This document shows, piece by piece, positions 7,956 to 39,314 of a stretch of DNA of 64,000 nt. The DNA lies in NCBI GenBank assembly GCA_016201105.1, contig JACQDN010000067.1, forward strand, positions 1 to 64,000. The letters run 5' to 3'. Origin of the DNA: Pseudomonadota bacterium (lineage in GTDB: Bacteria; Pseudomonadota; Alphaproteobacteria; Micropepsales; Micropepsaceae). The notes beneath the pieces are model-generated. The model was not told the DNA's origin, did no database searches, and worked only from the letters and a program-made list of their open reading frames with translations. Both the position numbers and the translations under genes were made by a program. The first letter of the stretch is position 1. Each line of letters starts with the position of its first letter.

Positions 7956-9761
7956 ATGGAGCGATTTCTCCGCGCGCTGCAAGCAAGACGGATCGACCGC
8001 ATCGCGGCCGGCTATGCCGTCGCCGGCTGGGTGCTGGTGCAGGCGGCCTCCATCGCGGTGCCGACCTTCGATGCGCCGGCCTGGCTGCTCAAGACGTTCA
8101 TCATTTTCGTCCTGCTCGGCTTTCCTATCACGCTCGGCACCGTTTGGTTCGCCACGCCGCATCTCGCCGGCCGCGCGGCGAGAGGAGAGCGGTTGAAGCC
8201 CATTCACGCCACTGCGTTGGCGCTTGTTGCCGCCGTCATTGTTTTCGTGGCGGGCGATCTTTCCTACCAGCTTGCTCACCTCTTCGCAGGAAGCACGGTG
8301 CAACAAAAGGCAGCGGCCCCGTTTGCGCCATCGCACGCCTCCATCGCGGTGCTGCCGTTCGTGAACATGAGCGGCGATCCCAACAAGGAGTATTTCTCCG
8401 ACGGCATCTCCGAGGAATTGCTCAACGATCTCGCCAACACGCCGGCGCTGCGCGTGGCGGCGCGCACCTCGTCCTTTGCCTTCAAGGGCAAGAACCAAGA
8501 CATCAAGCAAATCGCCCGCCTGCTCGGTGTGGCCTCGGTGCTGGAAGGCAGCGTGCGCGAGAGCGGCGAGCATCTGCGCATCACCGCGCAGCTGATCGAC
8601 GCTGTGAACGGCTATCATCTGTGGTCCAAGACCTACGACCGCGATCTGACCGACGTTCTTGCCGTGCAAGACGAGATCGCGCGCGCCATCACCCAGGCGC
8701 TGACCCATGCGTTGCTGCCCGCGGCCCGCGTGGGGTCCTCGCAGAAGCCGACGGCCATCGATCCTGAGGCCTATCGCGCTTATCTGCTGGGCCAGCACGA
8801 GATGGGGCCGCGCACGCAAGAAGGCGTCGAGAACGCGCTGGCGCTCTTTGAGAAGACGACGCAGCTTGCGCCCAATTTCGCCGAAGGGTTTGCGGCGCTG
8901 GCGCGCGCCCAGATCAATACCTCCGAATATCACGCCGAGCGCACGGACCTCATTCCGGCGGCGCATGTTTCGCTCCAGCGGGCGCTCGAGCTCGATCCCA
9001 ACAATCTGAACGCACTGGCCTCGCACCTGGATCTGGCGCTGCACCGGCTCGACTGGAAGACGGCGACCGCCGATGCGCGCCGCATGCGGGCGCTCAATCC
9101 CAACAGCGCCACCGTGCTGCACGAGATGTTCCGCTATTACCAGATCATGGGCTTTCCCGACCTTGCGCTCGACACGGTGCGCAGCGCCGTCATCCTGAGC
9201 CCGCTTTCCATCGTCGACCGCTTCAATCTTGCCGCGGCGTTGGTCCACAATGCGCGATATGCCGAAGCCGCCGCAGCCGCTCGCGCGGCACTCGCGCTGC
9301 AGCAGGACAATCCCATTGCGCTATCCTATCTGTGCACCGCGAGCGCGCACAGCAACGATCTGGATAGTGCCGGCGCCATCGCCGCCAAGTTCGCGTCCAT
9401 GCCCCATCAAGAAGTCTCCGCCCTCGGCTGCCAGTTCGACATCGCCGTGGGCAGCGGCAATCACGGCGAGGCGCGACGGCTCGCCGACGATCTTTCCAAG
9501 AAATACGCGACCGGTGATTTTTCGGCGACCGATGTCGGCGACAACTATGCCGTGGCCGGCGACTATCCCAATGCCGCCAAGTGGCTCGCGCGCGCCTACG
9601 ATCTGAAGGAGTTCGCGCTCTACACGATCATCTACGATCGCGCCATCGAGCCCGATTTCTTCCAGACCCCGGGGTGGAAGAAGCTGTTCGCCCGTCCGCT
9701 GTTTCAGGATTGGCAGCAGGCCCACGATGCGCTCGCCGCGGAGCTTGCGGCGAAGCATTAG
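7956..9761 (+). CDS. Membrane-anchored TolB/FlgO-like plus TPR protein
   Basis: From the ATG at 7956 (AGAGG just upstream; a TTG at 7920 would add 12 residues) the product has 601 residues. It has an N-terminal membrane region with three hydrophobic segments, then a periplasmic FlgO/TolB-like domain (SIAVLPFVNMSGDPNKEYFSD through DVLAVQDEIARAI), then TPR-type helical repeats to the end. Such proteins are common in alphaproteobacteria, often fused to adenylate cyclase or wHTH domains, which are absent here. It is probably a scaffold or sensor. It is followed closely by the DUF4139 genes. Confidence 0.85.
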   Translation: MERFLRALQARRIDRIAAGYAVAGWVLVQAASIAVPTFDAPAWLLKTFIIFVLLGFPITLGTVWFATPHLAGRAARGERLKPIHATALALVAAVIVFVAGDLSYQLAHLFAGSTVQQKAAAPFAPSHASIAVLPFVNMSGDPNKEYFSDGISEELLNDLANTPALRVAARTSSFAFKGKNQDIKQIARLLGVASVLEGSVRESGEHLRITAQLIDAVNGYHLWSKTYDRDLTDVLAVQDEIARAITQALTHALLPAARVGSSQKPTAIDPEAYRAYLLGQHEMGPRTQEGVENALALFEKTTQLAPNFAEGFAALARAQINTSEYHAERTDLIPAAHVSLQRALELDPNNLNALASHLDLALHRLDWKTATADARRMRALNPNSATVLHEMFRYYQIMGFPDLALDTVRSAVILSPLSIVDRFNLAAALVHNARYAEAAAAARAALALQQDNPIALSYLCTASAHSNDLDSAGAIAAKFASMPHQEVSALGCQFDIAVGSGNHGEARRLADDLSKKYATGDFSATDVGDNYAVAGDYPNAAKWLARAYDLKEFALYTIIYDRAIEPDFFQTPGWKKLFARPLFQDWQQAHDALAAELAAKH

Positions 9762-9825
9762 CCGGTCTCGCTCTCGACACCGCGCGGCGCTCATGAAACG
9801 CTGGTGTCGGGTAGGGGAGGGGCAG

Positions 9826-11271
9826 ATGAAACGTTTGGTTCTGTGCGCCGCTTTGCTGGCTTTGGCCGGTCTTGTCTCGGCAAGTCTGGTTTCGGTCGAT
9901 CCTGCGCAAGCCGCGAGCCATGCGAAGAAATCAACTGCAAACAAGCCGATTGTCGACAAATCCGCGCCAGAAACGGCGCAACAGCTTTCGCTGACCGTCT
10001 ACAACAACAATCTGGCCTTGGTGCAGGATGTGCGCCAGATGAATGTCGCCGCAGGGCGTTCGCGGCTTGAGTTCAAGGGTGTGTCGTCGAACATCCGGCC
10101 GGAAACGGTTGCGCTGAGCGGCAAGGGGCTCAGTATCGTCGAACAGAATTTCGACTACGATCTTTTGACGCCCGCCAAGATGATGGAGAAGGCGGTCGGC
10201 AAGCAGATCCAGATCGTCCGCACCAATCCGGCTACCGGTGCGCAGGCCACCGAAACCGCGACCGTGCTGTCCGTCAACAACGGCGTGATCCTGAAGATCG
10301 GCAATCGCATCGAAGTGCTGCGCGACGACGGCATTCCAACACGAGTCGTATTCTCCAGCATTCCGGAGAATCTGCGCGCCGAGCCGACGTTGTCGGTGAC
10401 CGTGGATTCAGCTGACGCCGGTACGCGGCAGACGACACTGAGCTATCTGACGACAGGGCTCACCTGGAGATCGGACTACGTCGCGCTGTTCGACGAGAAA
10501 CAAGGCACCATTCGTCTGCAGGGCTGGATCACCCTGACCAACAGCTCCGGCACCAGCTTCAAGAACGCCAAAACCCAGCTGGTGGCGGGCGATGTCAGTT
10601 TTGCCGACAGCTACGACGACCAGGATTGGCAAAGTCGGCGCAGTGCCAACGTGAAGGCGGGCACGATGCAGAACGATCAATCCGCGCTCGGAGACTACTA
10701 CGTCTACGACTTGCCGCTACGGGTGACGGTTGCAAACAGCCAGACCAAACAGGTGGGATTTCTCGATCTGCAGGGCGTGAAGGCGGACAAGACCTATGCT
10801 GTCGAGGTCGACGGCTTCGACAGCATCTCCACGCCAATGCATGTCGATTCGATCCTGATGGTATCGTCGATCGCCAAAGCGCTTCCGGTAGGAACGGTGC
10901 GAATCTACATGCGCGATGTGACGGGCGAGCCGAAGTTCATTGGCGAGAATCCTGTGGCCCACGCGCCTGCCGGATCGGATCTAGCCATCAAGCTGGGACA
11001 GGCCTTCGACGTGACAATGCAGGCGACTTTGGTCTCCAGCGAAAAAGCGCCCAATGACCACACCCGCGACTCCATGCTTTACGCCTTTCACAATGCGCGG
11101 GCGGTGCCGGTCACGGTCAATCTCAAACAAGGCGGACTGTGGCGCGGCGGACGCGTCGTGGACGAGAGTTTGAAAAGCAAGCGTCTCGACGCCGGCACGC
11201 TGCTCTGGGCGGTCCCCGTGCCAGCCCACGGCGATGCCACTCTGACGTTCACCGTCGATACCGGCGGCTGA
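9826..11271 (+). CDS. DUF4139 family secreted protein (first of tandem pair)
   Basis: The 481-residue product starts MKRLVLCAAL with a GGGGAGGGG ribosome-binding site and a signal peptide (to about AQA). The rest is the beta-rich DUF4139 architecture: an N-terminal strand domain (LSLTVYNNNLALVQDVR), a central TLSYLTTGLTWRSDYVALFDE block typical of the family, and a C-terminal beta-sandwich ending TFTVDTGG. The biochemical role of DUF4139 is not established. The next gene is a paralogue three bases downstream, so the two are cotranscribed. Confidence 0.88.
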   Translation: MKRLVLCAALLALAGLVSASLVSVDPAQAASHAKKSTANKPIVDKSAPETAQQLSLTVYNNNLALVQDVRQMNVAAGRSRLEFKGVSSNIRPETVALSGKGLSIVEQNFDYDLLTPAKMMEKAVGKQIQIVRTNPATGAQATETATVLSVNNGVILKIGNRIEVLRDDGIPTRVVFSSIPENLRAEPTLSVTVDSADAGTRQTTLSYLTTGLTWRSDYVALFDEKQGTIRLQGWITLTNSSGTSFKNAKTQLVAGDVSFADSYDDQDWQSRRSANVKAGTMQNDQSALGDYYVYDLPLRVTVANSQTKQVGFLDLQGVKADKTYAVEVDGFDSISTPMHVDSILMVSSIAKALPVGTVRIYMRDVTGEPKFIGENPVAHAPAGSDLAIKLGQAFDVTMQATLVSSEKAPNDHTRDSMLYAFHNARAVPVTVNLKQGGLWRGGRVVDESLKSKRLDAGTLLWAVPVPAHGDATLTFTVDTGG

Positions 11272-11274
11272 AGA

Positions 11275-12876
11275 ATGGACGCCTTGCGCGGCATCGCGGC
11301 GCTGCTTCTGGCGCTGGGTTTCTTGAGCACGGCGGTGATGGCCGATGTGATCTCCGAGCGCGCCGACAGCGTTACGGTTACGAGCTATCACAGCTCTTCG
11401 CCGGACACTGCGGAGTTGATGAAGCTGAATAGCGTCGAGGCCAGCGAGGAGGGGTTCACGCTGGTCAACGAGACGCGCAGCGTGGACTTGCCGGCGGGCG
11501 AGACCGTCATCCGCTTTCGCGGCGTCGCATCCACCATCGTGCCGCAGACTGCCGACGTCGAAGGCTTGCCGGCGGCGCCACTCGAGCGAAATTTCGACTA
11601 CGATCTGTTGGGGCCCGGTTCGCTCGTCGCCAAATCCATCGGGCAAACCGTGCATCTGATCCGCGTCGATCGCAAGACGGGAAAAGAAAGCGAACAATCG
11701 GCCATTGTCCGCTCCGGCCCCAACGGCGTTTTTCTGGACGTCGGCGGCAAGATCGAAGCGCTGGATTGCAGCGGCCTTCCCGAGCGGCTGGTCTTCGATC
11801 AGATTCCCGAGGGCCTCGCCGATACGCCGACCTTGTCGATGCGCGTCGCGGTGCCGGAGGCGGGGCACTACACGCTCAAGCTGACATATTTGATGACCGG
11901 GCTGCAGTGGGCTGCGGACTATGTCGCCCAGGTCGCGCAAGATGGCCGCAGCGTGCATCTGACAGGTTGGGTCACGCTTGCCAATGCGAGCGACACAACG
12001 TTTGCCGGTGCGCCGACGGAGGTTGTGGCGGGCCAATTGGCCACGACCGGTGACGACAAGCCTGTTCGTGTGCAAACGCTCGAGCGAAGTGCGCAATGCT
12101 GGCAAACCGATATCGATTGGGCGACTTACGCGGCCGTGGCCGCACCGCCGCCACCGGACCAGCGGCCACCCGGAGTTGAAACGGTGGTTGTAACGGCCGA
12201 AAAGCGCAAAGAAGACGTGCAGTCGGTACCACTCGCAGTGAACGCATTTGCTGGTATCGACCCGCGGCTGCTCGGCGACTACAAGCTTTATCCCTTGCCC
12301 GAGCCCACCACGGTCGCCGCGCGCCAGATCAAGCAGATCCAGTTTCTCGACCAGTCCGACGTGACGGTGCAGAAGCTTTATGTCTACTACGCCGATACCG
12401 ATTTCGAGTCCGACACGCCTCCCGCGGCACAGGTGATGTATCGCTTCAAGAATGACGTCGCTTCGGGCCTCGGAAAACCTCTTCCGGCGGGAAACTTCGC
12501 GTTCATGCTGCAGATCCGCGATCGCGATCCCTTGTTCGCCGGGCGGGGGCATATCGACGACACGTCCGTGGGCGATCCGCTGGAAATCATCTGCGGCGGG
12601 GCCATGGATATCCCCGTCGAACGGCGAAGGATCGAATCCAAGACTCTCGGCAAGGGTGAAGCTCAGCGCCGCAGCGACACGTTCGAATATGTCATCAGCA
12701 ACGACAAGGCGGAGGGGATCCAATTCGAACTTGGGCAATCGCTTGAAGGGGATGGCTTGCGGATTGTTTCTGAATCTCAAACCCACGTCACCCGCGCCAG
12801 AGGGGCGATCTGGAGTTTTTCGCTCAAGCCTGGTGAGCGTGCGACGCTGCGCTACACGGTCGAATATTCCTGGTGA
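11275..12876 (+). CDS. DUF4139 family secreted protein with TonB-plug-like insert
   Basis: The 533-residue product has a signal peptide (to about VMA) and the same fold signatures as its neighbour (LKLTYLMTGLQWAADYVAQV; LGDYKLYPLPEPTTVAARQ). Between the two halves, residues 302-327 read ETVVVTAEKRKEDVQSVPLA, the motif that normally opens the plug of TonB-dependent receptors, preceded by a Pro-rich stretch. No beta-barrel follows. It lies three bases after the first DUF4139 gene. The pair may act together at the outer membrane; that is inference. Confidence 0.88.
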   Translation: MDALRGIAALLLALGFLSTAVMADVISERADSVTVTSYHSSSPDTAELMKLNSVEASEEGFTLVNETRSVDLPAGETVIRFRGVASTIVPQTADVEGLPAAPLERNFDYDLLGPGSLVAKSIGQTVHLIRVDRKTGKESEQSAIVRSGPNGVFLDVGGKIEALDCSGLPERLVFDQIPEGLADTPTLSMRVAVPEAGHYTLKLTYLMTGLQWAADYVAQVAQDGRSVHLTGWVTLANASDTTFAGAPTEVVAGQLATTGDDKPVRVQTLERSAQCWQTDIDWATYAAVAAPPPPDQRPPGVETVVVTAEKRKEDVQSVPLAVNAFAGIDPRLLGDYKLYPLPEPTTVAARQIKQIQFLDQSDVTVQKLYVYYADTDFESDTPPAAQVMYRFKNDVASGLGKPLPAGNFAFMLQIRDRDPLFAGRGHIDDTSVGDPLEIICGGAMDIPVERRRIESKTLGKGEAQRRSDTFEYVISNDKAEGIQFELGQSLEGDGLRIVSESQTHVTRARGAIWSFSLKPGERATLRYTVEYSW

Positions 12877-38069: not shown

Positions 38070-38336
38070 ATGGATCTTCGCCGCGTGCTCATTCGAGGAT
38101 GGTTGCTGCTCACAGCAATCTGGACGTTGTATTTTCTGCATCACGCAATCGCCAACTGTGAAAGTTTTAGCGGCCGGGACGCTCATCTACTGGATGCGCT
38201 CCCAAAGTTTGGGATCGGCCCTGTGCATGGCAGCGATGGCCTCAGCCAGACCGTCCATAGGCAAGCGGACAGTCGGCTGCATGCCGTCATGGCCGGGCGG
38301 AAACTCCAGAGTCGCCTGAGACGCCGCAACCAATAG
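38070..38336 (+). pseudogene. Possible N-terminal fragment of a membrane protein
   Basis: The ORF begins at ATG 38070 after GGGGGTG and encodes a convincing start, MDLRRVLIRGWLLLTAIW followed by hydrophobic residues and FLHH. After about residue 38 it overlaps antisense the 3' end of the TonB/IalB gene and loses coding character. It looks like the 5' piece of a gene cut off by a rearrangement, or a spurious ORF. Confidence 0.35.
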
Positions 38337-39314
38337 AGTCTCCTGATCGACGGAAAAGCCGCTCAACGCCGTGCAACCGTCCTTGTCGGTACAACCCACG
38401 ACAGGAAGCTTCACGCCTTGATCGCCGAGTTCGAGCAGCACGGTATCGCCCTTTTTGGCCAACGGCGGCATGCGAATGATCATCGCTATGCTTCGACTCA
38501 GGCCGAGGAGGCGGAACGACACGGCCATTACAGCCTGTTCCGGATTCTGTTTGCTGTGAAAGATCATCATGACGTGACAGCGACCCATCGTAACCGGTCG
38601 GACCGCAGTCCTCGCTGGCGGCTGGGCGGCTATTGCCGATAGCGGCGTAGGGGTATCTGGCTTTGCGCCCGCTGTGGTGAGCGACGTAACCGGCTTTTGA
38701 TCCGCCGAGATGGCCGGCGCTGCACTGGGTGTGGAAATCACAGTTGTTGGGGCGGGCGGCGAAGGGGAATCTGCCGGCTTCTCGGGTTCGCTTAGGATCA
38801 TTGCCGAGCTTTTGCAATCGAGTTCCCAGGTCGCGACCTTGAGATTCCCAACCCAGCCGGCATGGATTTGTAAGAATGATGTATCCGTCGACGGAGGGCG
38901 GACAACGGTGTCCCTGCCGCTGCTGCAATGATCGGTACAACCTATCTTGGGGGCGGCCGCCTCGGAAGGGGACGACGAGAGCGTCCAGCGAACGTTGGTC
39001 TGCCACGAGACCTCGACCGGCGCGCCGTTTTCAACGGTGGAACGGTATTTCCACGTGTACGCGCACTCCACAGCGGCGTCGTCGAGCTCCTGATTGCCAC
39101 TCGATCCCACCACCGAAACGTCTTTCACACGACCTTGCACAGTGATCGTGAATTGCAAAAAGGTGGTACCTTCGATGCCGGCTCGCACAGCAGCAGCCGG
39201 GTATTCGCAATTATGGGATGTCCCGATCGTCGTCGACGCTTCGGGTGGGGGTGCGGTCACGGGCGGCGGCACATCGGCTACACCCATGAGCAATACCAAA
39301 AGTGCTGCCAGCAT
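38187..39314 (-). CDS. TonB-C-domain plus IalB-like fused secreted protein
   Basis: The 375-residue product has a signal peptide, then a TonB C-terminal-type domain (CEYPAAAVRAGIEGTTFLQ; DVSVVGSSGNQELDDAAV), a Pro/Thr-rich linker, and an invasion-associated-locus-B-like module (MPPLAKKGDTVLLELGDQGV; VVGCTDKDGCTALSGF). IalB proteins are periplasmic. The TonB domain lacks an N-terminal membrane helix, so it is not a classical energy transducer. The fusion is unusual. Confidence 0.75.
   Translation of the reverse strand: MLAALLVLLMGVADVPPPVTAPPPEASTTIGTSHNCEYPAAAVRAGIEGTTFLQFTITVQGRVKDVSVVGSSGNQELDDAAVECAYTWKYRSTVENGAPVEVSWQTNVRWTLSSSPSEAAAPKIGCTDHCSSGRDTVVRPPSTDTSFLQIHAGWVGNLKVATWELDCKSSAMILSEPEKPADSPSPPAPTTVISTPSAAPAISADQKPVTSLTTAGAKPDTPTPLSAIAAQPPARTAVRPVTMGRCHVMMIFHSKQNPEQAVMAVSFRLLGLSRSIAMIIRMPPLAKKGDTVLLELGDQGVKLPVVGCTDKDGCTALSGFSVDQETLLVAASQATLEFPPGHDGMQPTVRLPMDGLAEAIAAMHRADPKLWERIQ

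Follow-up and report, generated by a model that had tools for sequence, protein, structure and literature searches.

The window, as the whole analysed stretch of 64,000 nucleotides of alphaproteobacterial DNA is called here, carried two related genes in tandem (Table 1). The encoded proteins shared 30.6 % identity (BLASTP E 1.5e-64). The downstream product, here named the window protein, has an N terminus resembling a signal peptide, as judged by eye. Its residues 302-327 read ETVVVTAEKRKEDVQSVPLAVNAFAG, a TonB box with the start of the plug of a TonB-dependent receptor (TBDR). This feature of receptor N termini was present, but at an internal position. The motif had been recognized in the first-pass annotation, and its absence from the neighbouring paralog (9727-11271) was confirmed; the coordinates given there, 12180-12256, were shifted by two bases and did not follow the reading frame. 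The true span is 12178-12255, and the sequence quoted at that time, VVVTAEKRKEDVQSVPLA, corresponds to residues 304-321.

Table 1 Features of the tandem locus in the window
Feature	Position	Strand	Basis
Tandem paralog of the first type (DUF4139/DUF4140), lacking the insert; start probably near 9829	9727..11271	+	ORF, Pfam, sequence
Second-type DUF4139/MuiA-like protein (window protein)	11275..12876	+	533-aa ORF; signal-peptide-like N terminus; homologues found
Low-confidence, probably disordered linker, residues 254-335	12034..12279	+	AlphaFold2 pLDDT < 50
Pro-rich stretch APPPPDQRPPG, residues 290-300, just ahead of the box	12142..12174	+	Sequence
TonB box core ETVVVTA, residues 302-308	12178..12198	+	Receptor-profile matches, logo
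Plug-start-like tail EKRKEDVQSVPLAVNAFAG, residues 309-327	12199..12255	+	Spacing same as in own-genome receptors, e.g. VTAQKREQDIQSVPIAVSAFSG

The DUF4139 label given to the window protein stood by homology and was weak by score. Homology to the superfamily was evident from BLASTP comparisons with first types (E 1.5e-64 to 7e-43, best segment each), and a first-type member in genome G030 exceeded the PF13598 cut-off with 35.2 bits. The window protein itself reached 18.1 bits against the PF13598 cut-off of 31.8 and 21.7 bits against the cut-off of 112.6 for TIGR02231 (MuiA). Its sequence marks it as a divergent DUF4139/DUF4140 (MuiA-like) superfamily protein that reaches neither the Pfam nor the NCBIfam curated cut-off. 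A Pfam search with the whole protein at E up to 1 yielded DUF4139 and DUF4140 only, with neither a Plug domain (PF07715) nor a beta-barrel, and the linker alone matched no curated family.

The tandem arrangement was constant: each of the 41 loci of sufficient length to reveal a pair had a first type next to the second type. The pair also occurred in a named Sphingobium record, where only the second member had DIIVTAQRRQEAMQSAPMAF and both proteins were annotated just as hypothetical. The neighbours of second types differed by genome (a glycosyltransferase, an FtsW/RodA-type protein, an efflux protein) and included no constant partner; ton genes were not seen among the few neighbours checked. 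Locus L226 in genome G762 had two second types in tandem, one of which keeps the box (GDIVVTAERIRQYNLTSPSPITAI) and the other of which has lost it and kept the poly-proline.

Full-length relatives of the window protein were found in 6 of the 96 genomes of its order, the own genome included, the others being 43-48 % identical to it. Their linkers varied widely, yet kept the theme (TETIVVTGSRIDPRQ, LVESVVVTGSRIPQRGVYASSPLTAV and, in two cases, METVAVTGMRAS). The linker of L010 retained the tail only (SPLAVTAIAGGDL), while a relative from Parvularculaceae (L004) had a longer plug-like stretch, FVVVGSRIRRRGFEDVSQPAVVLDTEILDKRGFTNVAEALNEVP, plus a second box further on. On the level of the class, PF13598 located DUF4139 in 98 of 387 genomes. 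The strict box regex matched three of these proteins only, two of them second types. The third, L151 in genome G011, was a distant DUF4139 protein of 690 aa with EDIVVTGSTIS in a Pro-rich linker; its paralog in the same genome (L145) was without the motif. Canonical, high-scoring PF13598 proteins (loci L056-L073, with L064 left out) gave no match to the box regex. With a model built from nine second types (A1), used for the subfamily searches, second types turned up in 8 of 386 class genomes. In one family they were present in 128 of 249 genomes; we take it to be a Sphingomonad family because the named Sphingobium record has the same pair. The second types collected came from alphaproteobacteria, mostly from this one Sphingomonad-like family. 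The sample comprised 124 unique second types, about 19 listed places being left out; five sequences with masked stretches were dropped, which left 119, and L227, with a visible box in a linker that was not delimited, was set aside, giving 118 linkers. Very long frames in L220, L221, L222 and L224, considered as receptor fusions, were rejected as runs of N read as X.

A TonB box was present in 115 of the 118 delimited second-type linkers, and the rest of the linker hardly aligned. The strict core regex accounted for 111 of the 118, and four single-substitution variants were added by eye (L002, L003, L194, L241). A canonical box was missing from L010, L004 and one of the two tandem copies in L226; the box is therefore sometimes dispensable. 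The excess over chance persisted among representatives clustered by whole-protein identity: the core regex matched 23 of 27 at 50 % identity, 55 of 60 at 60 % and 85 of 90 at 70 %, with 0.58, 1.16 and 1.76 matches expected from shuffled linkers. Receptor profiles gave a concordant picture. One was made from the stretch around the plug start of 40 receptors, 11 of the own genome and 29 from eight genomes, all chosen by their Plug domain and not by their box. With a threshold of 4 bits it recognized second types in 63 of 119 cases, 62 of these within the linker, whereas first types accounted for 1 of 89 and shuffles for 17 of 2380. Raising the threshold to 10 bits left 11 of 119, 0 of 89 and 0 of 2380. 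The window protein scored 21.1 bits with this profile and 38.3 bits with a profile of the 11 Plug-domain receptors of its own genome, for which 0 of 2380 shuffled relatives reached 8 bits; the latter profile at 4 bits or more matched 36 of 119 second types, 0 of 89 first types and 4 of 2380 shuffles. Most single profile matches were short and worth only a few bits each, so the case rests on repetition. Residues ~281-335 alone matched the plug N termini of dozens of receptors in related genomes (96 of the order; best E 2.6e-8). The open reading frames matched were mostly 700-1150 aa long, and those of the own genome coincided with Plug receptors.

The TonB box of the window protein is, on this sequence evidence, real and not a coincidence lacking conservation among relatives, the possibility that had been raised against it. 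The first-pass interpretation is partly supported. The suggestion that the segment mimics a TonB box and may contact TonB has good support at the sequence level, though not as a trait of DUF4139 proteins at large: the regex found none among the canonical PF13598 proteins and the 40-receptor profile 1 in 89 first types. The suggested link to outer-membrane transport is conjectural. The insert, for which a survey of DUF4139 proteins had been proposed, occurs in the second-type subfamily and not in the canonical members examined.

The way in which the box varies was informative. Second types and receptors had the same logo preferences, hydrophobic-hydrophobic-V-T-[G/A]-x-[R/K]. Among the 115 boxes V was conserved in 98 %, T in 96 % and R in 86 %, and the plug tail was gone in many members. 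The invariant V and T were each encoded with all four codons. Across 116 linkers, a count that includes the relic in L010, the distance from the box end to the next conserved strand ranged from 6 to 52 residues (median 20); the first poly-proline run lay ahead of the box in 81 relatives, behind it in 14 and was absent from 21. Varied codons and a free position are what selection on the peptide sequence of a linear motif should produce. When the 118 proteins were placed on a tree that excluded the linker, 26-27 changes between VTG and VTA were needed, at least 20-21 of them forced by well-supported branches, with clustering somewhat above that of shuffles. The box has therefore endured through repeated changes of its form. 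Longer plug-like stretches, e.g., RGINTVAEALQRVSADG and RGFTNVAEALNEVP, were observed in the linkers of L004, L276 and L231 and in the loci L377 and L381 of another protein family described below; they hint at a repeated capture of receptor DNA, by which the box may be renewed. Among ten bare second-type linkers Pfam reported Plug PF07715 below threshold in two (L004, E 0.14; L276, E 0.034) and NCBIfam a receptor family for one; otherwise the curated libraries returned mostly nothing or chance Pro-rich families. A fresh gene conversion in the window was considered and rejected: the best DNA match to any receptor compared was only 77 % over 64 bases, hence the segment is not a fresh receptor copy.

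An AlphaFold2 model of the window protein, built on a shallow alignment of nine sequences, had a mean pLDDT of 70.5; residues 254-335 stayed below 50, with no strand at the box. Sequence and model together place the box in a flexible, presumably accessible Pro-rich linker joining two beta-rich halves. Structural comparisons led to no trustworthy relative. The best Foldseek hits, ribophorin I/OST1 chains, combined E 2.2e-6 with a TM of only 0.12, and VIA-align gave Z values of up to 8.5 to common beta-sandwiches; no fold relation is claimed.

The same module appeared in a second protein family. A weak box-model match in genome G146 was a YfbK-like vWA protein of 625 aa with ADEIVVNGSRIRRDPANAPTPLVQVEREALLASGQTGTVDYLATVPALSNS adjoining poly-proline (L366/L332). 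The box regex matched 3 of 30 YfbK_C loci from 241 class genomes, all three in two families that also hold second types, and none of the 27 YfbK-like proteins of other class families. Within these two receptor-rich families, 22 of 32 YfbK loci had a regex match in Pro-rich N-terminal linkers (L366/L332, L365, L364, L368-L396; 29 new and 3 earlier loci, L369 being incomplete, all counted by regex). With the 40-receptor profile, 8 of the 32 loci scored 4 bits or more, compared with 1 of the 27 YfbK-like proteins from the other class families and 2 of 640 shuffles. In L377 the segment read EAIVVTGTRLPQRNVETATPIAVVQSEEFKLSGTVNVSNVVNNLPQVVPG; Pfam Plug matched it with E 0.012 and NCBIfam listed receptor N termini including BtuB, all below the cut-offs. 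A loose regex detected a lipobox-like motif in 24 of the 32 loci. With this occurrence the module is not confined to DUF4139; from the sequences, the trait belongs to one DUF4139 subfamily and some YfbK-like proteins, and the observation is more general than the first-pass annotation had assumed.

The genomes concerned are rich in receptors. The own genome had 11 Plug and 13 TonB_C matches, and a box model of 15 receptors (A3) hit ten places in it at E up to 0.01, nine of them Plug receptors and the tenth the window protein (E 2.5e-6). At least 11 Plug matches were present in 8 of 8 class genomes with a second type, compared with 59 of 386 overall in the same draw, where scoring stopped at 12 matches per genome; the 8 genomes belong to only three families, and shared ancestry may underlie the association. 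Three further proteins were noted. The window encodes on the minus strand (38187-39314) a TonB_C protein of 375 aa (74.5 bits) with the domain near the N terminus, unlike classical TonB. A protein in genome G104 (L334:1700-3619), assigned to no Pfam family, had GETTITVTGTKIRD directly behind a signal-peptide-like N terminus and is perhaps another TonB-box carrier. An RHS-repeat protein of the own genome (L337, genome G000, contig C36) contained STVTVTGSRVPYEAS; its match to the A3 box model (E 0.3) is probably due to chance.

We propose, with a probability of roughly 0.6, that the window protein is a non-barrel client of TonB that works like TolB with TolA, a proposal drawn from the sequence comparisons, the model and the analogy. 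The protein would be exported to the periplasm, as its N terminus suggests. There the flexible Pro-rich linker between the beta-rich halves would display the TonB box and then the plug-start-like segment, and this segment would join the TonB C-terminal domain as an added beta strand, as with receptors. ExbB-ExbD-TonB could then exert a pull on the DUF4139 protein like the one presumed for TolA on TolB. Alternatively, the DUF4139 protein might hold TonB and keep it from the receptors. A force-coupled envelope factor is in our view more likely than a simple TonB sink, with titration of TonB as the main variant. Selection at the peptide level would retain the box, its exact form being repeatedly exchanged within the repertoire of the receptors.

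The linker segment may have other explanations. It might pass for a receptor N terminus before some partner that is not TonB (for instance a protease, a chaperone, or a sensor of receptor export or turnover), or act as a decoy. The likeness indeed takes in the plug start as well as the box, and longer plug pieces occur in a few linkers (L004, L276), which exceeds the need of TonB pairing; a link of MuiA in Pseudomonas to envelope stress, besides motility, is stated in excerpts of PMC10418997 and fits a role of this kind. However, the strongest conservation coincides exactly with the box, with the percentages given above for V, T and R, while the plug tail is often lost, and we regard this alternative as unlikely. 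Somewhat less likely still is that receptor DNA was captured time and again, by neutral events, at proline codons rich in GC and left a functionless piece. Close relatives do have inserts resembling different receptor classes (VTAEKRKEDVQSVPLAV in the window protein, VTGSRIPQRGVYASSPLTAV in L007), and longer plug pieces adjoin poly-proline also in an unrelated protein family; yet the box was kept in nearly all linkers with varied codons, and the DNA identity of the window segment to its best receptor match is low.

It is very improbable that the segment just belongs to the DUF4139 fold as an internal beta strand with a superficial likeness to a TonB box. A run of V-V-V-T has a strong tendency to form strands and the structure model was built on nine sequences only, but this model predicts no strand and low confidence at the segment, the position is free at 6-52 residues to the next domain with poly-proline on either side, first types are without the linker motif, and unrelated YfbK-like proteins have the module as well. 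In extension of the preferred reading of the window protein as a TonB client, receptor-rich alphaproteobacteria might possess a class of non-barrel TonB clients, comprising at least two unrelated families (second-type DUF4139 and YfbK-like vWA proteins) with exchangeable, receptor-renewed TonB-box/plug-start cassettes beside poly-proline, so that ExbB-ExbD-TonB would power or regulate envelope machines beyond import gates, comparable to TolA-TolB. This extension is tentative, and we rate it at a little under even odds.

In the usual view TonB drives outer-membrane receptors, colicins being the exception. If the proposal is true, the conservation of a TonB box in envelope proteins other than receptors and toxins means that TonB has further cellular clients. 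The box would be a first handle on the function of DUF4139/MuiA-like and YfbK-like proteins, and a single point change in it is predicted to abolish function or TonB binding. The findings also suggest that receptor-derived cassettes move between genes. In one open-licence library we found nothing on DUF4139 together with TonB, on any two or more of TonB box, DUF4139, mucoidy inhibitor MuiA and VIT domain, on the TonB box in combination with von Willebrand factor and plug domain, or on the TonB box with Sphingomonadales; judged by their listing, the records on DUF4139 alone were unrelated work and those with TonB-box-like wording did not concern such proteins.

TonB-dependent receptors such as BtuB and FepA have the box core [E/D]-T-hydrophobic-V-V-T-[A/G]. 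The window protein is alike in this core, and its tail and spacing equal those of the receptors of its own genome, but it is without plug domain or barrel and bears the box internally between two folded halves. MuiA/TIGR02231 and DUF4139-DUF4140 proteins have a homologous scaffold (paralogs 29-39 % identical); the window protein falls below both curated cut-offs and the canonical members examined are without a box. TolB, with a beta propeller and an N terminus through which it pairs, resembles the window protein as a mechanistic analogue only; to our knowledge, no sequence link between TolB and DUF4139 exists. A review (PMC8928145) describes TolB as soluble and periplasmic, its disordered segment being added as a strand to the C-terminal domain of the PMF-driven TolA, and calls this pairing analogous to that of TonB and TonB boxes. 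In the passages of a 2025 paper (PMC12204202), TolB is derived from a protein that lost its barrel and vWA proteins are proposed as force transducers; DUF4139 is not mentioned. That paper likewise puts forward the idea of further envelope proteins tied to the Ton/Tol motors, but its vWA proteins are proposed as transducers tethered in the inner membrane and not as TonB-box clients, whereas the YfbK-like proteins described here carry TonB boxes. Group B colicins have a TonB box of their own (PMC12511343, in excerpt) and are, like the window protein, non-receptors with this box in a flexible part. Colicin receptor-binding or killing domains were not detected in the window protein at E up to 1, and colicins are secreted toxins that enter from outside, whereas the second type is part of a tandem pair conserved in many genomes.
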